DNA of 64,000 nt from an uncultured Burkholderiales bacterium. Its GTDB lineage: Bacteria > Pseudomonadota > Gammaproteobacteria > Burkholderiales > Burkholderiaceae_C. Shown piece after piece: positions 19,100 through 38,911 of the stretch (position 1 is its first letter; every line of letters begins with the position of its first letter). The stretch lies in NCBI GenBank assembly GCA_945952065.1, contig CAMFGY010000029.1, positions 1 through 64,000 of the forward strand, read 5' to 3'. A program made the position numbers and the translations under genes. The notes beneath the pieces are model-generated. The model worked only from the letters and a program-made list of their open reading frames with translations. It did no database searches and had not been told where the DNA came from.

Positions 19100-19609
19100 A
19101 TGAGCTCAGCCATGTATTCAGCTTCCGTGCCCGTTTTCAAGCAAATGTTGGGGGGCTTGGCCGATGTGTTGGCCAAGGCCGAAGCCCATGCCGCGGCCCG
19201 CAATATCGAGCCCGCCGCGCTGCTGCAAGCACGTTTGTTCCCCGATATGTTTGCGCTGACCAAGCAGGTGCAGGTGGCCTGCGACTTTGCCAAAGGCGTT
19301 TGCGCCCGGCTCGCGGGGGTGGATGTGCCCAGCGCCGAAGACAAGGAACAGAGCTTTGCTGAGCTGCAGGCCCGCATCAAAACAACCTTGGCTTTTATTG
19401 AGGGCCTGAGTGCCGCGCAATTCGAAGCCGCCGCCAGCCGCAGCATCGTCACCCGCCCCGGCACACCCAAGGAGCGCCACTTCACCGGCCAGGACTATTT
19501 GCTGCACTACGGTCTGCCGCAGTTCTTCTTCCACGTGACCACCAGCTACGCCATCTTGCGGCACAACGGCGTGGAGTTGGGCAAGAAGGACTATATGGGC
19601 GTGTATTGA
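19100..19609 (+). CDS. DUF1993 family protein (DinB-like fold)
   Basis: 169 residues. Recognised by MYSASVPVFKQMLGGLADVL, ARLFPDMFALTKQVQVACDFAKG and the C-terminal FFHVTTSYAILRHNGVELGKKDYMG, the DUF1993 pattern; members adopt a four-helix bundle related to DinB. No activity is known to me. The frame stays open far upstream, but homology begins at MSSAMYS (19100). A shared terminator at 19679 separates it from the convergent PEP-CTERM gene. Confidence 0.85.
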   Translation: MSSAMYSASVPVFKQMLGGLADVLAKAEAHAAARNIEPAALLQARLFPDMFALTKQVQVACDFAKGVCARLAGVDVPSAEDKEQSFAELQARIKTTLAFIEGLSAAQFEAAASRSIVTRPGTPKERHFTGQDYLLHYGLPQFFFHVTTSYAILRHNGVELGKKDYMGVY

Positions 19610-19678
19610 GCGCCGCACTGCATTGCCAGGCCTGTTGCAGCGCTCAGTTGCTTGATGGCGCTGGCGTGCAGCTCATGA

Positions 19679-19703
19679 AAAACGGGCCCAGCGGGCCCGT
19701 TTT
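19679..19703. terminator. Bidirectional terminator
   Basis: An 11-bp stem aaaacgggccc/gggcccgtttt (19679-19689 with 19693-19703) lies between two convergent genes and serves both strands. Confidence 0.85.
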
Positions 19704-19726
19704 GTTTGCGCTCTTGGGGTGCTGAA

Positions 19727-20407
19727 TCAGATCGAGCGCGAGCGGCGCTTGCTCAAGAAGCCCACAATGCTCAGGCCTGCCAACAGCAAGGCATAGCTGC
19801 TGGGTTCGGGCACGGCGGTCACGGCATTGAAGCGCAGCAAGTCTTGGTGGCTGTCATTGCTGAGCTTTTCAATCTGATACAGGCTGCTGCCGGTGTAGGC
19901 GGCGCCGGCGTTCAGATAGCCGTTGGCCAAGTCCTTCAGGGTGTTGTAGCCCGAGGTGCTGTTGTTGAGGTTGAAGTACTGGGCATCACCGCTCAGTTCG
20001 GTCACGCTGGCCGGGCCGCTGAGCTTTTCATGCGTCAGCTCCCAAACGGCCAATTGAAAGGCCGCGCGCTCCGTGTTGGTGTCCACGCTGGCGTAGTTGG
20101 CCGAGAACAGGTTTTGCAAGCTGCTGGCTTGGCTGCCGGTGAAGCTGCCCACGGTGTAGGTGGCGTAGCTGGTGGAGGTGAACTGTGCCAACTCCACGCA
20201 GTAGGCGCCAAAGCTGGCGCCGTTCTTGATTTCAAAATTCAGCAGACCTGCAGATGTGCTCTCGTTGAGGCCACGCTGTTCGATGTCCACATTGACACTG
20301 CCGCCCACAAAACCGTTTTGGCGGATCGAAATGGTGTTGGCGGCTTGGGCCGCACCGGCCAAGCTGAAAACGGCGGCGGCGATCAGTGTGAAATGACGGC
20401 TGTTCAT
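19727..20407 (-). CDS. PEP-CTERM protein with possible Cys-Gln thioester domain
   Basis: 226 residues. Signal peptide to AQA (residue ~22), then a single compact domain, then VPEPSSYALLLAGLSIVGF plus an Arg-rich tail: a canonical PEP-CTERM signal (residues 199-225). The middle contains YCVEL with Cys70 and AAFQLAVWEL with Gln118. That spacing and wording match the Cys and Gln of Gram-positive thioester domains, where they form an internal bond used for covalent attachment to surfaces. If the match is real, this would be a thioester adhesin delivered by exosortase. C70 is the only Cys after the signal peptide. Confidence 0.88.
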   Translation of the reverse strand: MNSRHFTLIAAAVFSLAGAAQAANTISIRQNGFVGGSVNVDIEQRGLNESTSAGLLNFEIKNGASFGAYCVELAQFTSTSYATYTVGSFTGSQASSLQNLFSANYASVDTNTERAAFQLAVWELTHEKLSGPASVTELSGDAQYFNLNNSTSGYNTLKDLANGYLNAGAAYTGSSLYQIEKLSNDSHQDLLRFNAVTAVPEPSSYALLLAGLSIVGFLSKRRSRSI

Positions 20408-20604
20408 ATCTGTTTTTCAGAGGGCTGTTGGCCCTGTCCCTGTGCTAGTTGTGGCTGAGGATTTGCACTGTAGGGGCCAAAGCCCTCGGCCGGCTCCCCC
20501 TTGGCGTGGGATGCAACAGGCTTGGCGTGAAGCTCTTCACGCACAAGGCGCTCAAGTTTTGCTGGGGGCGCCGATCACAGGGTCAGGTGTTGCCACGGCG
20601 CCGC

Positions 20605-20632
20605 AAAAAAAGAGCCCGCGCAAGGCGGGCTC
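20605..20632 (-). terminator. Terminator after the chemoreceptor gene
   Basis: An 8-bp GC stem (20612-20619 with 20625-20632) is followed on the minus strand by seven Ts (20611-20605). Confidence 0.85.
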
Positions 20633-20700
20633 GATGGCATTGGCTTTGGCCGTTAGTCTCCGCAGGCCTTGGCAAACTCGGCAGCGGAGGCGGTCCTTCT

Positions 20701-22245
20701 TCAGGGTAACTTGAAGGCGGACACGGAGTCCACCAACTGCGTGGCTTGGTCGCGCAGGCTTTCGGCGGCGGCGGCCGACTCTTCCACCAGCGAGGCGTTT
20801 TGCTGCGTCATCTTGTCCAGTTGGCCCACGGCTTGGCTGATTTCACCCAGCGTCAGCGCCTGCGCTGATGTGGAGTTGGAAATCTCCGCCACGATGCGGG
20901 TCACCCGTTGCACGCTTTGCACCACCTCGCCGATGGTGCCGCCGGTGTCTTGCACCAGGCGCACGCCGGTTTCCACGCGCTCCACCGAAGCCGAGATCAG
21001 CGTCTTGATTTCACGTGCCGCTTGCGCGCTGCGCTGTGCCAGCGAGCGCACCTCGCTGGCCACCACCGCAAAGCCGCGCCCTTGCTCGCCAGCGCGCGCC
21101 GCTTCCACGGCCGCATTGAGCGCCAAGATATTGGTCTGGAAAGCAATGCCGTCAATCACGCCGATGATGTCGGAGATCTTGTTCGACGACTGCTGGATTT
21201 CATTCATGGTCTCCACCACGCGGCTGACCATGGCGCCGCCGCGGTCCGCCACCACGGCGGCCGTTTGCGCCATGCTGTCGGCCTGCCGCGCGGCCTCGGC
21301 GTTGCTGCGCACGCCTTCGCCCAATTGCTGCATGGCGGCGCCGGTTTCTTCCAGGCTGCTGGCCGCTTGCTCGGTGCGGTTGGACAAGTCCATATTGCCC
21401 GAGGCAATCTCAGTGGAGGCGATGCGCACCTGCTCCGCAGCGTTGCGCACGCCGGTGATGGTGCCCGCCAATTGCTGCTGCATGCGCTGCAGAGACTGCG
21501 TCAGCTCGGCCAGTTCGTCGCTGCCCTGGCTGTGCACGCGCAGGGTCAGGTCGCTGTCGGCAATGCTGTGAGAGAGCGCTTTGGCCTGTTCCACCGGCCC
21601 GGTCACCGAGCGTGTGATGGCCAAGGCGATCATCACCCCCAGCACCGTGGCCAGTGTGGACAAGCCCAGCACCAGATTGCGGGCAAAGACCGCTTGCTCG
21701 CTGGCCTCCAGTCGCGCGGCTTGCAAGCGCTCGCGGCTGTGTTCGGCGTAGGCGTTGATGGCCTCCAGATAGGTTTCCATGGCGGGGATCAACTCGGCCA
21801 CCACGCGGGGCTTGATGTCCTGGCCGTCTTTCTTGAGCTTGCCCAACTCGTCGCGCAGGGTTTGGTACTGCTTGCGGGTGTTGCCGATTTGGTCGCTCAG
21901 GCGGTCGGTTTCGGGGGTCTTGCTGAGCTTGTCGATCTCTTCTTGCACCTTGTCCACCCGTGCTGAAGTCTCTTTGGACTTGCGGGTGAAGGCTTTCACA
22001 AAGTCGGCGTCATCCACCACCATGCTGACGATGCGACGCTGAATATTGGCTTCGGTCAAGCCCGACCAGGCGCGCGCCAGGTCTAGGGCTTGCATCTCGG
22101 CTGACACCAAGTGTTCGATGCGGGCATTGAGCTGTTGCACCCGCAACACCCCGACCAGCGAGGCCACCAACATCAAGCTCATCACCAGCGCAAAACCTGC
22201 CAAAACCCGCGTACGCAGGCGCCAACTGTCCATTGCAGAAAACAT
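20701..22245 (-). CDS. Methyl-accepting chemotaxis protein
   Basis: 514 residues. One transmembrane helix near residues 14-36, a periplasmic four-helix-bundle-type sensor domain (about 37-185), a second helix (about 187-207), a HAMP segment and the cytoplasmic signalling domain. The conserved hairpin tip is intact ([29 protein letters not shown], residues split here only by the description). Methylation-type Gln/Glu pairs flank it. It senses a ligand in the periplasm and controls CheA through CheW. No che genes are near, so it is a stand-alone receptor; ligand unknown. Confidence 0.94.
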
Positions 22246-24096: not shown

Positions 24097-25140
24097 ATGA
24101 ATGTTGTGAAGAATCAGCAAGAATTCCTGTCCACCACCCGCGGCCCCCGTGCCTTCAGTGGCCTGCGTGTCGCAGCGATCGCGGCAGCCGCAGTGACGGT
24201 GTTGCTGGCCGGTTGCGGCGGCGGCTCCAAGAGCGATAAAGCCTCGCAAACCGCGGCCAAGGTCAACAAAGAAGAGATCACCGTTCACCAGATCAACTTC
24301 GTGTTGCAGCGCCAGCAAGGCCTCAAGCCCGAGCAGGCTGAAGCCGCCAGCAAGCAAGTGCTGGAGCGCCTGATCGAACAAGAGTTGGCCGTTCAAAAAG
24401 GCCAAGAGCTGAAGATCGACCGCGACCCCAAGGTGGTGCAGCAGATTGAAGCCGCCAAGCGCGAAATCATCGCCCGCGCCTATGTGGAGCGCATTGGTGA
24501 ATCGGTGGCCAAGCCCACGGCTGAAGAAGTCAGCAAGTACTACAACGAGAAGCCGGCCCTGTTCAAAGACCGCCGCATCTTCAGCCTGCAAGAGCTGGCC
24601 ATTGAAGCCAAGCCTGAGCAAATCCCTGCGATCCGCGAGAAGCTGCAAGCTTCCAAGAACATGGCGGAGTTTGCTGAGTATCTGAAGGCCAATGACATCC
24701 GCTTCCAAGGCAACCAAGCCGTGCGCGCCGCTGAGCAGCTGCCCCTGGCAGGCCTGGACGCCATTGCCCGCATGAAGGACGGCGACTCTGCCATCACTCA
24801 AACGCCCAACGGCATGACCGTGTTGTTCTTGGTGGGCTCGCGCAGCCAGCCTGTGGACGAAGCCCGTGCCCGCCCCGCGATCGAAGCCTTCTTGAGCAAC
24901 CAGCGCAAGGCTGAGCAAGTGCAAAAAGACATCAAGGCTTTGCGCGCCGCCGCCAAGATCGAATACGTGGGCAAGTTTGCTGAAGGTGCACCCGGCGCCG
25001 CTGCGGGGTCCGCTTCCGCGCCAGCCGCCGCGGCCACAACGCCTGCCGCTGTGACTGCGCCTGAAGCCCCCGCCGCCGTGGCCCCTGCCGCCAGCGGCTT
25101 GGATGCCAGCGCCATTTCCAAAGGCATGGGCCTGAAGTAA
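24097..25140 (+). CDS. epsD: EpsD-type peptidyl-prolyl isomerase lipoprotein
   Basis: 347 residues. A lipobox VLLAGC (Cys near residue 41) follows a hydrophobic segment, so the protein is probably a lipoprotein. The body is SurA/parvulin-like: NKEEITVHQINFVLQRQQG, a helical chaperone part and a degenerate isomerase domain (FSLQELAIEAKPEQI). The tail is a Pro/Ala linker. It is the first gene of the EpsD-E-F-G series that accompanies exosortase B and is thought to help fold export-machinery proteins. RBS GAAGGAAAG precedes ATG 24097. Confidence 0.9.
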   Translation: MNVVKNQQEFLSTTRGPRAFSGLRVAAIAAAAVTVLLAGCGGGSKSDKASQTAAKVNKEEITVHQINFVLQRQQGLKPEQAEAASKQVLERLIEQELAVQKGQELKIDRDPKVVQQIEAAKREIIARAYVERIGESVAKPTAEEVSKYYNEKPALFKDRRIFSLQELAIEAKPEQIPAIREKLQASKNMAEFAEYLKANDIRFQGNQAVRAAEQLPLAGLDAIARMKDGDSAITQTPNGMTVLFLVGSRSQPVDEARARPAIEAFLSNQRKAEQVQKDIKALRAAAKIEYVGKFAEGAPGAAAGSASAPAAAATTPAAVTAPEAPAAVAPAASGLDASAISKGMGLK

Positions 25141-25144
25141 TGCA

Positions 25145-26029
25145 ATGAGCAAACTGATCGGATTGAAGATGACGATGATGACGACTCGAAGCCCCTCTTG
25201 GCTCGGCCTGGCTTCTTTGGCGCTGGCGTGTGCCGCTTTCGGGCAAGCCGCTTGGGCGGCGAGCCCAGTGGCGCCCGCCGCTGCCGCAGCCTCGGCGCCC
25301 ACCGCCGAATACCGCCTGGGTTCTGGCGACGTGATTCGCATCACCGTATATCAAAACCCGGACCTGACCCTGGAAACCCGTGTCTCCGAAGCCGGTGTGG
25401 TGTCTTATCCCTTGCTGGGCAATGTGCGCCTGGGCGGCCTGAGCGTCACGCAAGCCGAGCAATCGATTGCCGACGGCTTGCGCACCGGCAACTTCGTCAA
25501 GAACCCGCAAGTCACCATCGTCGTCTTGCAGGTCAAGGGCAACCAGGCCAATGTGCTGGGGCAGGTCAACCGCCCGGGCCGCTATCCGATCGAAACCGCT
25601 GACATGCGCTTGACCGACCTGATCTCTAACGCCGGCGGCGTGGCCCCCGGTGGCGCTGAGATTTTGGTTGTGACTGGCAAGCGCAACGGCAAGCCCTACC
25701 GCGTTGAAATCGACCTGCCGGGCCTGTTTGCGCCCGGCGGCAGCGACAACGACATCTTCATCCAGAACGGCGACGTCGTCTGGGTGGACCGCGGCCCCAT
25801 GGTCTACATCTATGGCGAAGTGCAGCGCCCCGGCCCCATGCGCCTGGAACGCGGCATGACCCTGATGCAAAGCCTGGCCACGGGTGGCGGCATCACCCAA
25901 CGCGGCACCGAAAAAGGCATCCGCGTGCACCGCAAAAACGCCGAAGGCAAGGTCGAAGTCATTCAACTCCCCATGGACGAGAGCTTGAAAGACGGCGATG
26001 TTGTGTATGTCAAAGAGAGCTTGTTCTGA
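25145..26029 (+). CDS. epsE: Polysaccharide export outer-membrane protein EpsE
   Basis: 294 residues. Signal peptide to AAWAA, then the export domain (YRLGSGDVIRITVYQNPDLT, then GVVSYPLLGNVRLGG) and two SLBB-type repeats (ANVLGQVNRPGRYPI and VYIYGEVQRPGPMRL). It is a Wza-like protein forming the outer-membrane channel for the polymer. It begins 4 bp after epsD. A possible internal start lies at residue 9 (MTMMTT). Confidence 0.93.
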   Translation: MSKLIGLKMTMMTTRSPSWLGLASLALACAAFGQAAWAASPVAPAAAAASAPTAEYRLGSGDVIRITVYQNPDLTLETRVSEAGVVSYPLLGNVRLGGLSVTQAEQSIADGLRTGNFVKNPQVTIVVLQVKGNQANVLGQVNRPGRYPIETADMRLTDLISNAGGVAPGGAEILVVTGKRNGKPYRVEIDLPGLFAPGGSDNDIFIQNGDVVWVDRGPMVYIYGEVQRPGPMRLERGMTLMQSLATGGGITQRGTEKGIRVHRKNAEGKVEVIQLPMDESLKDGDVVYVKESLF

Positions 26030-26039
26030 GTCGAGGTAA

Positions 26040-27476
26040 ATGATGTCGTTCGCACAGTTCTTATCTATTTGCCTCGCTCGATGGAAAGTTTCCGTCTCGA
26101 TTTTTGTGAGCGTTGTTGTCGTTACTTTGGTTGCCAGCCTTCTCTGGCCTAAGAAGTACTTGGCGACTGCCTCGGTGGTGGTAGAGGTAAAACCAGATCC
26201 ATTGAGCGCCATGATGTTTTCTGGTGCTCCAAACCCAAGTTTGATCGCCACTCAAATTGATGTGATCACGAGTGACCGCGTGGCCTACAAAGTGGTTCGT
26301 AACCTCAAGTTGGCTGAGAATCCGCAAATTCGTGAGCAATGGAAGGAAGACACGAAAGGTGAAGGCTCAATTGAGCAGTGGCTTGGGGAGAGTTTTCAAC
26401 GAGGACTGGATGTAAAACCCTCGCGTGAGTCCAATGTCATTACGGTTGGCTACAAGGCCGCCGACCCCAGGTTTGCGGCAGGGCTGGCCAATGCTTTTGT
26501 TCAAGCCTATTTGGAAACTACGCTTGAGCTGAAAGTTGATCCCGCCAAACAGTATGTTGGTTTCTTTGAAACCCGTTCAAAGGAAGCGCGTGAGGCCGTT
26601 GAAAAGGCTCAATCAAAACTGTCTGAGTTCCAGCGCGAGAAAGGAATCATCGCGTCGGACGAGCGCCTTGATGTCGAGAACACACGTCTGAATGAGTTGT
26701 CTACGCAATTGGTGGGATTGCAGGCTTTGGCCAGTGATTCGGGTAGCCGTCAGTCTGTTTCGAAAGGGGCTGGTGGTGAGCGAATGCAAGAAGTCTTGGG
26801 CAATTCGTTGATCGCTGGACTGAAAGTTGACCAAGCTCGTATGGAGTCTCGATTAGAGGAACTGAACTCCAAGTTGGGAGCCAATCACCCGCAAGTGGTC
26901 GAACTCAAGGCCAATATGGCTGAATTGAGCAAGCGTATTGCTGACGAGACTGCCAAAGTGGGAAGTAGTATCAGTTTGGCAAACTCAATCAATCAACAGC
27001 GCGTTGCTGAGTTGAAGACTTCTTTGGAGGCGCAGCGTGCCAAAGTACTTCAAATGAAAGCGGTTCGTGATGAAGGAGCGGTGCTTCTTCGCGATGTCGA
27101 GAATACGCAACGTATTTATGACCAAATTCAGCAGCGATTGAATCAAGTCTCGCTTGAAAGTCAGGCCAATCAAAGCAGTGCATCTATCTTGACGCAAGCG
27201 GTTCCGCCATTGCAGCCGAGTTCACCTCGGCTCATTCTGAATATGGCTCTTTCTGTATTTGTAGGCACTTTGCTGGCGGTTGGAGTCGCACTGCTTCTTG
27301 AATTGCTGAATCGCCGTGTTCGTACTGCAGACGATGTGGTGCAAGCCGTTGGTTTGCCGATTATTGGTGTTCTTCAGGCGCCGACAGCCAAACGCCTGTT
27401 TGGTCGCGTCGCCACAGCAAATTTGGCTCAGAGACGACTGCTCGGGCCAGTTTCTGGCGGTAACCGGGTCGCGTGA
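26040..27476 (+). CDS. epsF: Chain-length determinant protein EpsF
   Basis: 478 residues of the Wzz family: an N-terminal membrane helix (CLARWKVSVSIFVSVVVVTLVASLL), a long periplasmic coiled region (about 150-390, heptad-rich Glu/Gln/Lys) and a second helix near 400-425 (MALSVFVGTLLAVGVALLLELLNRR). It sets polymer length with EpsG. Two adjacent ATGs (26040, 26043) follow GAGGTAA; the second has the better spacing. Base composition becomes less GC-rich from here on. Confidence 0.92.
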   Translation: MMSFAQFLSICLARWKVSVSIFVSVVVVTLVASLLWPKKYLATASVVVEVKPDPLSAMMFSGAPNPSLIATQIDVITSDRVAYKVVRNLKLAENPQIREQWKEDTKGEGSIEQWLGESFQRGLDVKPSRESNVITVGYKAADPRFAAGLANAFVQAYLETTLELKVDPAKQYVGFFETRSKEAREAVEKAQSKLSEFQREKGIIASDERLDVENTRLNELSTQLVGLQALASDSGSRQSVSKGAGGERMQEVLGNSLIAGLKVDQARMESRLEELNSKLGANHPQVVELKANMAELSKRIADETAKVGSSISLANSINQQRVAELKTSLEAQRAKVLQMKAVRDEGAVLLRDVENTQRIYDQIQQRLNQVSLESQANQSSASILTQAVPPLQPSSPRLILNMALSVFVGTLLAVGVALLLELLNRRVRTADDVVQAVGLPIIGVLQAPTAKRLFGRVATANLAQRRLLGPVSGGNRVA

Positions 27477-28399
27477 GTATGAATACAGTGTTTTCAGATA
27501 GGACCGAAACCGTGAGTAGTGACAAGGTTCAGGAAGAAGTTTCGCAAGCTTCGCAAGAGCGCTCCATTGGCGACATCATTCGCGATGCACGCAGTCTGAG
27601 TGCCGCTGAAGTTGAAAAGGTTCTGGCCTACCAGCGGGACAAAGGTGTTCGTTTCGGTGAAGCTGCCGTGGCCTTGGGTTTGGCCAGCGAAGACGATGTT
27701 TTGAATGCGTTGGCCCAGCAGTTTAGTTACCCGCTAGCCAATGCTGAGCGCAGGGTCTCAAGCCCTGAATTGGTGACTTTGAATCAGCCGTTTTCGGTGC
27801 AAGCGGAAGCGATTCGCGCGGCCCGGAGTCAAGTCACCATGCGTCTGCATGGGGCCAGTGCCGCGAAAGAGCAAAGCCAAACAGCAGTGGCGGTGATCAG
27901 CCCCGACCACGGAGATGGCAAGACCTATTTCGCTGCAAATTTGGCTGTGTCGCTGGCGCAGCTGGGTGGGCGCACTTTGCTCGTCGATGCTGACTTGCGC
28001 TCGCCGCGTCAGCATGAAGTGTTTTGTGTTTCCAATGCTGCCGGTTTGTCCAATGTGCTCTCTGGCCGTGCTGAAGCTCAAGTGATTCAATCGGTGGAAG
28101 GGGTGCCCGGCCTGTTTGTCCTGCCAGGTGGTTCCATTCCACCCAACCCGCTTGAATTGGTGGAACGACCCGCGTTCGCTTTGTTGATGCGGGAGTTGTG
28201 TGCCAAGTTTGACCACGTGATCGTCGATACAGCCGCTGCGAGCAGTGGTGCTGATGCGTGTGTGGTCGCCGCCAAATGCGGTTCAGCGATTGTTCTTGCA
28301 CGCAAGAACGCCTGCAAATATGAAGCGCTGCAGGATTTGGTCGCGAGCTTGGCGGGTAGCTCGGTGAATGTGCTTGGCGCAGTCATGAACGAGTACTGA
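27473..28399 (+). CDS. epsG: EpsG, bacterial tyrosine-kinase-type chain-length partner
   Basis: 308 residues. An N-terminal segment resembling the GspE/MshE N domain (IGDIIRDARSLSAAEVEKVLAYQ) is followed by a P-loop kinase domain: SPDHGDGKTYFAANLA (Walker A), LLVDADLRSP (Walker A') and DHVIVDTAA (Walker B). These are BY-kinase features; the usual C-terminal Tyr cluster is reduced to the final Tyr. GTG 27473 overlaps the epsF stop (GTGA); ATG 27479 is an alternative start. It acts on EpsF at the inner membrane. Confidence 0.9.
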   Translation: MSMNTVFSDRTETVSSDKVQEEVSQASQERSIGDIIRDARSLSAAEVEKVLAYQRDKGVRFGEAAVALGLASEDDVLNALAQQFSYPLANAERRVSSPELVTLNQPFSVQAEAIRAARSQVTMRLHGASAAKEQSQTAVAVISPDHGDGKTYFAANLAVSLAQLGGRTLLVDADLRSPRQHEVFCVSNAAGLSNVLSGRAEAQVIQSVEGVPGLFVLPGGSIPPNPLELVERPAFALLMRELCAKFDHVIVDTAAASSGADACVVAAKCGSAIVLARKNACKYEALQDLVASLAGSSVNVLGAVMNEY

Positions 28400-28430: not shown

Positions 28431-29309
28431 ATGTCAACCTCTCTGTCTAGCGGGACCTCGCCGGTCAAATTCGATCTGCCTGTCGTCATCCTGTTGTTGT
28501 TAGGGCTTGCGGTCATGTTTGGCCCAACGGCCATGACCCTGGCAAGCACGGTGTGGGTGAAAGATGAACAAGGGCACGGGCCCATCATCTTTGCAGTCGT
28601 GCTTTGGCTCTTGTATGGCAAGCGGCAAGCCTTTGCTGAGATTGCGGCCCGGCCAAAGCCCGGCTTGGCTGCTGGGATGCTTGCTCTCGGATTCTTGCTT
28701 TATGTATTGGGGCGCTCTCAGGCCATCTTGATGTTTGAAGTAGGAGCGCTGATTCCTATTTCCATTGGGCTGATCTTGCTCTTCAAGGGCGCAGAGGCAT
28801 TGCGTCTTTGCTGGTTCCCGATTTTCTTTTTGATTTTCATGGTGCCGCTGCCGGCCACCTTGGTGATTGCGATCACCACCCCTTTGAAGAGCGCGGTTTC
28901 TGCAGTCGCAAGTTCTATTCTTTACGCCATTGGATATCCGGTCGGGCGTAGCGGCGTGATTCTGACGGTCGGCCCCTATCAGCTCTTGGTAGCAGACGCT
29001 TGCGCGGGTTTGAACTCAATGTTCACCCTAGAGGCGTTGGGCATGCTCTACATGAACCTGATGAACTACAAGTCAGTGGCCAGGAATGTGGCTTTGGCGG
29101 TTCTGATCGTGCCGATCTCATTTGTAGCCAACATCATCCGCGTGATGATTCTGGTCTTGGTGACCTACCACTTTGGCGACGAAGCCGGGCAGGGCTTTGT
29201 CCATGGCTTTGCTGGCATGGTCTTGTTCATTGTGGCTTTGGCCCTGATTCTGTTTGTAGACCATGGCATGCAAGTCTTGGCGCGCTTGTTCAAAGGGGGC
29301 GCAAAATGA
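28431..29309 (+). CDS. xrtB: Exosortase B
   Basis: 292 residues with about eight membrane helices. The catalytic triad candidates are Cys191 (ADACAGLNSMF), Arg237 (NIIRVMIL) and His258 (FVHGFAGMVLF), all in the family positions. Exosortases cleave PEP-CTERM proteins at the membrane and pass them to a surface anchor. The two PEP-CTERM proteins at 694 and 19727 are candidate substrates. The association with EpsD-G and the EpsI partner is the layout of the exosortase B group. Confidence 0.94.
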   Translation: MSTSLSSGTSPVKFDLPVVILLLLGLAVMFGPTAMTLASTVWVKDEQGHGPIIFAVVLWLLYGKRQAFAEIAARPKPGLAAGMLALGFLLYVLGRSQAILMFEVGALIPISIGLILLFKGAEALRLCWFPIFFLIFMVPLPATLVIAITTPLKSAVSAVASSILYAIGYPVGRSGVILTVGPYQLLVADACAGLNSMFTLEALGMLYMNLMNYKSVARNVALAVLIVPISFVANIIRVMILVLVTYHFGDEAGQGFVHGFAGMVLFIVALALILFVDHGMQVLARLFKGGAK

Positions 29310-36933: not shown

Positions 36934-37030
36934 GTAGTTGGCAATTTCTCAGTTGGTTGAAACAGCATAGTTTTCGATACTTTGAGGCCGGTAATGTGGG
37001 CTAGAGAAATTGGTGCCGAGGGAGGAAGAA

Positions 37031-38911
37031 ATGTGTGGCATTAACGGAATAATTCAGTTGAACTCAGGTGGACAGGGGCAACTGCAATCCCAGATTGAAA
37101 GCATGAATTTAGCCATTGCCCATCGCGGTCCCGATGGTGAAGGAACCTTCGTACGGCCAGGTATAGCCTTGGGGCATCGTCGGTTATCGATTCTTGACTT
37201 GAGCGAGGCAGGCGCTCAACCCATGCACAGTGCGGATGGGATGCTAACGCTGGTGTTCAACGGCGAGATTTACAACTACATCGAGTTGGCGGAAGAACTG
37301 CAAGCCAAGGGCTATGTGTTCAAGTCGCATAGCGATACCGAAGTGATCTTGCATGCCTATCGGGAGTGGGGCGAAGACTGCGTGCAGCGTTTCAATGGCA
37401 TGTGGGCTTTTGCCTTGTGGGACTCAGCGCAGAACAAGCTTTTCGCATCGCGCGATCGCTTGGGCGTCAAGCCCTTCTTTTATTTGCGAACGGCTGACCA
37501 GTTCATCTTCAGCAGTGAAATTGGGGGCATTCGCGCCGTGGTGCCAGTCACGGAAGCCAACCTTGGCAAGCTGCATGACTATTTGGCCTATGGCTACCGC
37601 ACCAACAACGGCGAGACCTTTTTCAAAGACATTTTTGAGCTCAAGCCTGGCCATGTGATGGTGAGCCAGGGCGGGCAGATCAGCTTCAGGCGTTTCTGGG
37701 AAATCAAACCCAACCAGCCCGCCCCGCAGAGCCGCAATCCTGTGGCCGCTTATGCCGATCTGTTGCGCGATGCGGTGCGTTTGCGCTTTCGCAGTGATGT
37801 TCCCGTGGCTTTGCTGCAAAGTGGCGGCATCGACTCTTCGGTGATCTGCACCATCGTCAACGACGAGATCGACTCCAACCGCCTAGGCGTTGAGACTGTG
37901 ACAGCGTTCACGGCAACGCATCCGGGCCACGCTTTTGATGAGAGCGGGCCGGTGCGTGAGTTGATGAAGACTTGCCCGCATATCCAGTCGGTAGAGCTCA
38001 GCCCCAACGGCGACACCTTGGCGGCAGACTTCAGGGACTATGTCCGTGCGATGCAAGAGCCGATGGGGAGCGCCGCTTCTTACGCCCATTGGCGCTTGAT
38101 GCAAGAAGTGCGGCGTCAGGGTATCAAGGTCGTCATCAATGGCCAAGGCGCCGATGAAGCGCTGGCGGGCTATGGGCAGTACATCCGTGGCTACCGTTTG
38201 TTGGACCTGCTTCAAACGCGTGTCTCAAGCGTGTTGGCTGAGGCGCGCGCCATTCGACGCAATATGCCCTGGGGCTATGCCAGTCTCGTGGCTCAAACCT
38301 TCAAGGCCATGTTGGGCCGTCGCGCCGCTTCCCGTTTTCGTGCGCGTTTTGTGGAGCGTTCCTTCAGTGTCTTGCGCCCCGAATTCAAGCGAGAACAACA
38401 AGGCTATCTGCCAGATCTGGGCATGTCTTGGGACGGCAAGAACCTCGACCGGCATCTGCGCAGTCAGTTGCAAGACTATGGCTTGAACCAAATCTTGAAC
38501 TACGAAGATCAATCGGCCATGAGTCAGGGCATCGAGATTCGGTCACCCTTTGTGGACTACCGATTGATGGAGTTCGCGTTTGCTTTGCCTGATGAGGAGA
38601 AGTTCTCTGGCGGCATCACCAAGAAGATTCTGCGTCAAGGCTTCAGTGGCCGTGTGCCTGATTCCATCATCAATTCCAAAATCAAATTGGGTTTTGCCAT
38701 TCCTTTCGCTGAATGGTTGAAACGACCCGCGATGCAGGACTTGGTGCGCAGGCTGGTGGACTCCCCTGCCTTCAAATCGCGAAAAATATGGGATGCGGAA
38801 AAGCTTGCTGCCCTCTTGACCGATCCGAAAGCTTCCGCAAGAGGTTTTCCTGCTTGGCGTTTCCTGATGGTGGCTGTTTGGCTTGATGAATACGAAATCA
38901 ACAATGCTTGA
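37031..38911 (+). CDS. asnB: Asparagine synthase-like glutamine amidotransferase
   Basis: 626 residues from ATG 37031, set by GAGGGAGGAAG and by the need for Cys at position 2 (MCGING), the glutaminase nucleophile. An N-terminal Ntn glutaminase domain (LAIAHRGPDGEG, FNGEIYNY) is followed by an ATP-pyrophosphatase domain with LLQSGGIDSSV. Classically it makes asparagine from aspartate. Inside glycan loci such enzymes often amidate uronic acids; with uronate-sugar genes nearby, that role is likely here but unproved. It lies 121 bp after the previous gene. Confidence 0.92.
   Translation: MCGINGIIQLNSGGQGQLQSQIESMNLAIAHRGPDGEGTFVRPGIALGHRRLSILDLSEAGAQPMHSADGMLTLVFNGEIYNYIELAEELQAKGYVFKSHSDTEVILHAYREWGEDCVQRFNGMWAFALWDSAQNKLFASRDRLGVKPFFYLRTADQFIFSSEIGGIRAVVPVTEANLGKLHDYLAYGYRTNNGETFFKDIFELKPGHVMVSQGGQISFRRFWEIKPNQPAPQSRNPVAAYADLLRDAVRLRFRSDVPVALLQSGGIDSSVICTIVNDEIDSNRLGVETVTAFTATHPGHAFDESGPVRELMKTCPHIQSVELSPNGDTLAADFRDYVRAMQEPMGSAASYAHWRLMQEVRRQGIKVVINGQGADEALAGYGQYIRGYRLLDLLQTRVSSVLAEARAIRRNMPWGYASLVAQTFKAMLGRRAASRFRARFVERSFSVLRPEFKREQQGYLPDLGMSWDGKNLDRHLRSQLQDYGLNQILNYEDQSAMSQGIEIRSPFVDYRLMEFAFALPDEEKFSGGITKKILRQGFSGRVPDSIINSKIKLGFAIPFAEWLKRPAMQDLVRRLVDSPAFKSRKIWDAEKLAALLTDPKASARGFPAWRFLMVAVWLDEYEINNA

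Follow-up and report, generated by a model that had tools for sequence, protein, structure and literature searches.

A predicted thioester domain on a PEP-CTERM protein of an uncultured Burkholderiales bacterium

We analyzed a 64,000-nucleotide stretch (the window; positions 1 to 64,000 of contig CAMFGY010000029.1) of an uncultured Burkholderiales bacterium, in which a minus-strand gene at 19727..20407 encodes a protein of 226 amino acids. We suggest that this protein is probably a secreted, stalkless thioester domain (TED) that reaches the cell surface through PEP-CTERM/exosortase sorting. A TED fold with a thioester between Cys70 (C70) and Gln188 (Q188) is highly probable, and covalent adhesion or cross-linking has about an even chance of being the job of this domain. 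The original prediction, made from the sequence, had described a PEP-CTERM substrate with C70 in YCVEL as the only Cys of the mature protein and Gln118 (Q118) in AAFQLAVWEL, and all of this was confirmed, C70 being the sole Cys of the entire chain. Its proposal of an adhesin-type thioester domain on an exosortase substrate is supported by a PF08341 match close to the cut-off, the structure match and the alignment with the adhesin SfbI. The features of the gene are listed below.

19727..20407, minus strand: whole gene, PEP-CTERM protein with the predicted TED (open reading frame and profile matches)
20342..20407, minus strand: putative signal peptide, roughly residues 1-22 (cut site behind AQA judged by eye from the sequence)
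19817..20338, minus strand: predicted TED, residues 24-197 (AlphaFold2 model and structure match)
20198..20200, minus strand: C70 (YCVE), presumed thioester Cys (sequence; Cys in 111/112 distinct sequences)
20054..20056, minus strand: Q118 in the helix motif AAFQLAVWE, whose Gln does not form the bond in known TEDs (sequence and published TEDs)
19844..19846, minus strand: Q188 (SHQDLL), presumed thioester Gln (112/112 sequences; aligns with SfbI Gln261)
19742..19816, minus strand: PEP-CTERM sorting signal, residues 198-222 (PF07589)

Sorting signal and predicted fold

The C-terminus carries a PEP motif, a hydrophobic segment and a basic tail, matched by PF07589 (29.5 bits, cut-off 20.7) and modeled as a helix at residues 202-224; surface display and exosortase cleavage are predicted from this signal. 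The protein has a single domain, with no isopeptide or ester stalk and a PEP-CTERM tail rather than an LPXTG anchor. Q188 is 12 residues ahead of the PEP motif (7-22 across the family, median 10).

The AlphaFold2 model contains the barrel and three-helix fold of TEDs, and the highest structure-comparison Z scores (12.6-10.5) were obtained with the class II TEDs BaTIE (6fwv), SaTIE (6fx6) and EfmTIE86 (6fwy). According to the accessible text of PMC6194298, an alpha0 helix between strand D and alpha1 marks class I TEDs and a seven-stranded beta-sandwich between alpha3 and strand P marks class II TEDs. Both are absent from the model, where strand 82-87 leads directly into helix 91-107 and helix 151-170 is joined to strand 177-183 by a 6-residue linker. 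The window protein is like class II TEDs in its top Z scores and in lacking alpha0, and it shares a YC-hydrophobic-acidic motif with TIEpLS20 (YCID), but the class II beta-sandwich of about 75 residues is missing. A survey of fibrillar adhesins contains TED-like clusters (19 and 21) that also lack the insert and are predicted fibrillar adhesins; the accessible part of this survey does not mention PEP-CTERM (PMC9210967). Class I TEDs (SfbI 5a0l, CpTIE 5a0g, Cpa 2xic) differ by their alpha0 helix, and class I adhesins by a stalk with isopeptide or ester bonds and LPXTG, whereas the window domain abuts its sorting signal. Complement and alpha2-macroglobulin proteins couple to targets by an internal Cys-Gln thioester in a fold that differs from the TED; their CxEQ motif, as given in partly accessible sources, is absent from the window protein, which reads CVELAQ.

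Bond residues and competing explanations

In known TEDs the bond joins the Cys of a [YFL]C-hydrophobic-hydrophilic motif to a late-strand Gln in a weak PhiQ-zeta-Phi-Phi motif, and the central helix carries a third motif, TQxxPhiW, whose Gln makes contact with the backbone of the Cys in solved TEDs; both the Gln and the Trp of this motif were dispensable for the bond in one Cpa TED (PMC4450167 and PMC6194298, accessible portions). In the window protein YCVE satisfies the Cys motif, FQLAVW on model helix 111-126 satisfies the helix motif with Phe replacing Thr, and the late HQDLL (Q188) immediately precedes model strand 190-195. The match to Cys and Gln signatures claimed originally holds for the Cys, but the Gln named was the helix Gln, and SHQDLL with Q188 had been overlooked.

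A 38-row family profile placed SfbI Cys109 and Gln261, 152 residues apart, on C70 and Q188 in two separate stretches (E 0.89), and a 77-row profile placed them there in a single alignment with TQNAIW paired with the Q118 motif (E 0.041); phmmer with the single protein found no match among PDB sequences, and profiles were required. The structure alignments end with model residues 195, 196 and 197 opposite residue 268 of 5a0l, 275 of 5a0g and 276 of 5a0d, and an ungapped count back from these ends would pair Q188 with the residues published as forming the bond, Gln261 and Gln267. In a Planctomycetota family model, counting in this way from Q201 agrees for 5a0g and 5a0d and is one residue off for 5a0l. 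The case for Q188 rests on the order of the motifs, the register and the fold match, not on the weak E-values, and by analogy with known TEDs the bond-forming Gln is presumed to be Q188 rather than Q118.

C70, Q188 and D189 played no part in choosing the family sequences and are found in 111/112, 112/112 and 105/112 distinct sequences, respectively; exactly one Cys is present in the domain in 111/112. These 112 distinct cores include the window protein and replace an earlier tally of 123, which held some proteins twice, trimmed differently. Q118 and W122 occur in all 112, but relatives were scanned with that peptide and filtered on it, and this conservation is biased.

The thioester between C70 and Q118 that had been proposed is very unlikely. 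The presence of Q118 in every sequence and the contact of the helix Gln with the Cys backbone would fit it, but the former was built in by search and filter, solved TEDs bond the late-strand Gln, one Cpa TED forms the bond without needing the helix Gln or Trp, and it is Q188 that pairs with the bond Gln of SfbI. Because of the same backbone contact, adjacency of C70 and Q118 in a model, the check suggested for that bond, could be observed without Q118 being the bond partner.

It is also very doubtful that C70 stays free or forms a disulfide (dimerization, metal or heme) and makes no thioester; a lone Cys in an exported chain would suit this role, but the TED fold, the matching Gln and the fit of the Cys motif to the published rule argue otherwise. 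That the motifs arose by chance in a PEP-CTERM protein of low complexity is hardly credible. PEP-CTERM proteins are numerous (53 profile matches in the genome, many to the tail only) and compositionally biased, but the three-motif rule (Cys motif, QxxPhiW, later Q-polar-hydrophobic), drawn up after the sequence had been seen, was satisfied by 1/100000 composition shuffles of residues 22-198, and the family of 112 distinct sequences and the fold match also speak against chance.

Several observations weigh against a surface-displayed TED with a C70-Q188 thioester. The profile search against thioester-domain families, proposed with the original prediction, was split: PF08341 reached 19.9 bits on the protein (residues 68-143), under the cut-off of 22, but 22.2 bits when the genome frame was searched. 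Foldseek gave a TM-score of just 0.38-0.41 to SfbI, and for the Planctomycetota family model its best match, a TIE protein, had E 0.014, with none at or below 0.001. Both SfbI sequence matches are weak, and the rows below SfbI in the 77-row profile search are unrelated proteins (E 0.31-0.54). Q188 is preceded by His and not by a hydrophobic residue, unlike the published motif, and the stalk of known TED adhesins is lacking. A relative from Roseateles cellulosilyticus (L083, 7851-8543) has Ser for Cys with the Gln retained, and G100, one of the 14 PF08341-positive genomes described below, has no exosortase match. L083 is a ready-made natural comparison without the thioester.

We consider it improbable that the TED fold keeps these residues for stability or non-covalent binding and does not react with targets, or that the thioester merely shields the lone Cys until hydrolysis. 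Such a role would agree with the missing stalk and the one natural Cys-to-Ser relative. However, a published Cys-to-Ala mutant TED was structurally essentially unaltered, according to a partly accessible source, which indicates that the bond is not required for the fold; therefore there is little reason besides reactivity for the near-invariant C70 and Q188. For the preferred reactive C70-Q188 thioester, we infer bond formation and reactivity by analogy with known TEDs.

Family, distribution and exosortase association

Of 57 phmmer hits, 43 were kept, 11 without the strict helix pattern were passed over and 3 duplicates were skipped; L027 and L028, among the 11, look like true members (QAITW and QAGIW). 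Alignment A1 excludes the window-gene duplicate, L018, L019, L044, L046 and one of three L035 open reading frames. Alignment A2 (77 members) uses 76 of 81 filtered references, with L058, L083, L084, L087 and L131 excluded, so that C70 is invariant in A2 without the Cys-to-Ser L083, which the 112-sequence count includes. Identity averaged over columns is 27% for the 38-row alignment and 24% for the 77-row one. The sorting motif is PEP in 84/112 and PLP in 15/112 sequences, and PF07589 matched 62/77 members of A2 at E 0.01. At the same threshold PF08341 left 39/77 A2 relatives unmatched, and the window protein itself is at the Pfam cut-off; many family members would therefore go unnamed in databases.

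Named relatives (the best 80 of 269 were retained) are mostly Burkholderiales, the closest being from Paucibacter sp. Y2R2-4 (86% identical), which suggests that the window probably comes from a Roseateles/Paucibacter species. They were detected in Roseateles/Paucibacter, Crenobacter, Janthinobacterium, Alkalimonas and Pseudomonas cuatrocienegasensis, and in metagenome-assembled genomes of Sphingomonas, Phycisphaeraceae and Rokuibacteriota. Among 398 genomes drawn over the phylum, near-full-length profile matches were found in at least 6, the own genome counted, which is a lower bound with at most 7 candidates scored per genome; in G452, the seventh, a longer form was matched in part.

Exosortase was matched in 13 of the 14 PF08341-positive genomes (E 0.01) vs 106/200 genomes of the taxonomic family. 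It was also matched in 34/37 three-motif genomes (none in G041, G090 and G100), a hand-picked set of at least 37 whose searches used a query including the PEP-CTERM tail and favor exosortase genomes; the PF08341 count is free of that bias. Fisher tests on these data ignore kinship.

The own genome has two exosortase (PF09721) matches, one at window positions 28500-29264, and encodes two more TED-PEP-CTERM proteins, one on contig C35 and one, matched in two pieces, on contig C3. Both paralogues retain the Cys, helix and late-Gln motifs, as judged by eye. The C3 paralogue (L135) is longer, with an insert between the Cys and helix motifs, and a similar long form (L149) is present in another genome. 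The 53 genomic matches cited above are to the A2 profile and point to dozens of PEP-CTERM proteins.

Possible function and genomic setting

The proposed mechanism would start with Sec export and folding of the domain, after which the C70 and Q188 side chains would close into the internal thioester with loss of ammonia. Exosortase would remove the PEP-CTERM tail, so that the domain would sit directly at the point of attachment, and a nearby primary amine (Lys of a surface protein, a matrix amino sugar or ethanolamine) could attack the thioester. The amine would become amide-linked to Q188, tying the surface coat covalently to the matrix or a neighbour. The amine target and a role in aggregation are guesses on our part. 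Matrix or cell-surface amines appear at least as likely as targets as host amines, because the named relatives are mostly Burkholderiales and the gene is near an exopolysaccharide locus:

28431..29309, plus strand: exosortase B (XrtB), candidate sorting enzyme (TIGR03113 357.1 bits, cut-off 275)
24097..28399, plus strand: epsD-epsE-epsF-epsG exopolysaccharide genes of the XrtB locus (profile matches)

The EpsG-type protein scored below its cut-off (267.2 vs 313.8), and the locus also holds GDP-fucose genes. An asparagine-synthase-like amidotransferase is encoded in the exopolysaccharide locus at window positions 37010-38911; the XrtA/PEP-CTERM amidotransferase model was below cut-off.

PepA of Aquincola, a floc-forming PEP-CTERM protein, shares the exosortase-type sorting signal and the exopolysaccharide setting. 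Its overexpression decreased soluble and increased bound exopolysaccharide by an unexplained mechanism, and the accessible text reports no TED for it (PMC9850573). The NCBIfam PepA model NF033554 matched the window protein weakly (30.5 bits, cut-off 80). In view of the PepA exopolysaccharide shift and the PEP-CTERM setting, we think that the domain may couple to amines near the cell, in the matrix or the envelope of a neighbour, rather than to a distant host receptor. We tentatively suggest, as an unlikely extension, a two-ended cross-linker, in which exosortase would join the C-terminus to a surface or exopolysaccharide moiety and the Q188 thioester would join an amine, so that small PEP-CTERM proteins of this family would staple cells or strands of matrix covalently. 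If true, thioester domains would have a third, stalkless form in Gram-negative bacteria, and the effect of PEP-CTERM proteins on bound exopolysaccharide would have a chemical mechanism.

If the bond forms, covalent adhesion would extend to outer-membrane bacteria via another sorting machine, with a chemical clue to the function of some exosortase-sorted proteins. The founding TED survey had matches exclusively in Gram-positive bacteria, as far as its accessible text goes (PMC4450167). We found no literature description of a thioester domain on a PEP-CTERM/exosortase protein or of TED adhesins of Proteobacteria, subscription papers and, for the former, protein-database domain listings being outside the search; a protein database may already hold the TED and PEP-CTERM architecture.

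Another PEP-CTERM-type gene is directly upstream on the same strand in 16/80 named loci and a convergent one downstream in 9/80, where genes were counted only if their tail resembled the profile closely enough. Neither kind of neighbour accompanies the window copy. The FxDxF PEP-CTERM model was best in all four upstream neighbours examined, two over and two under the cut-off. The two convergent genes examined (L060 8981-10081, L062 8805-9875) encode a putative adhesive domain (pAdhesive_15, choice-of-anchor A), and adhesion islands of TED genes with such convergent genes are possible.

A chemotaxis receptor gene (20701-22245) is upstream of the TED gene on the same strand, followed by a terminator-like hairpin at 20612-20632 (2 such sites in the stretch, 1.9 expected by chance). 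Because this hairpin separates the two genes, the TED gene is probably transcribed from a promoter of its own. We detected no sigma-70 site in window positions 19580-20720. A sigma-54-like element, TGGCCCCTACAGTGC (20465-20479; TGGC-N8-TGC, spacing GG-N10-GC), is 72 nucleotides upstream of the gene, and such elements occur within 300 nucleotides in 15/90 relatives vs 2.6% of mononucleotide shuffles; as promoter evidence it was set aside, the nearest relatives (L053-L056) being without one. An inverted repeat, gcgtgaag-ct-cttcacgc (20525-20542), is 118-135 nucleotides upstream of the gene. Its GTG-N8-CAC pattern, which we take to resemble a CRP-family site, is retained at this site in L053-L056. 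A CCCTACAGT-like stretch (20467-20475) is retained in the same four relatives, exactly in two and with one mismatch in two.
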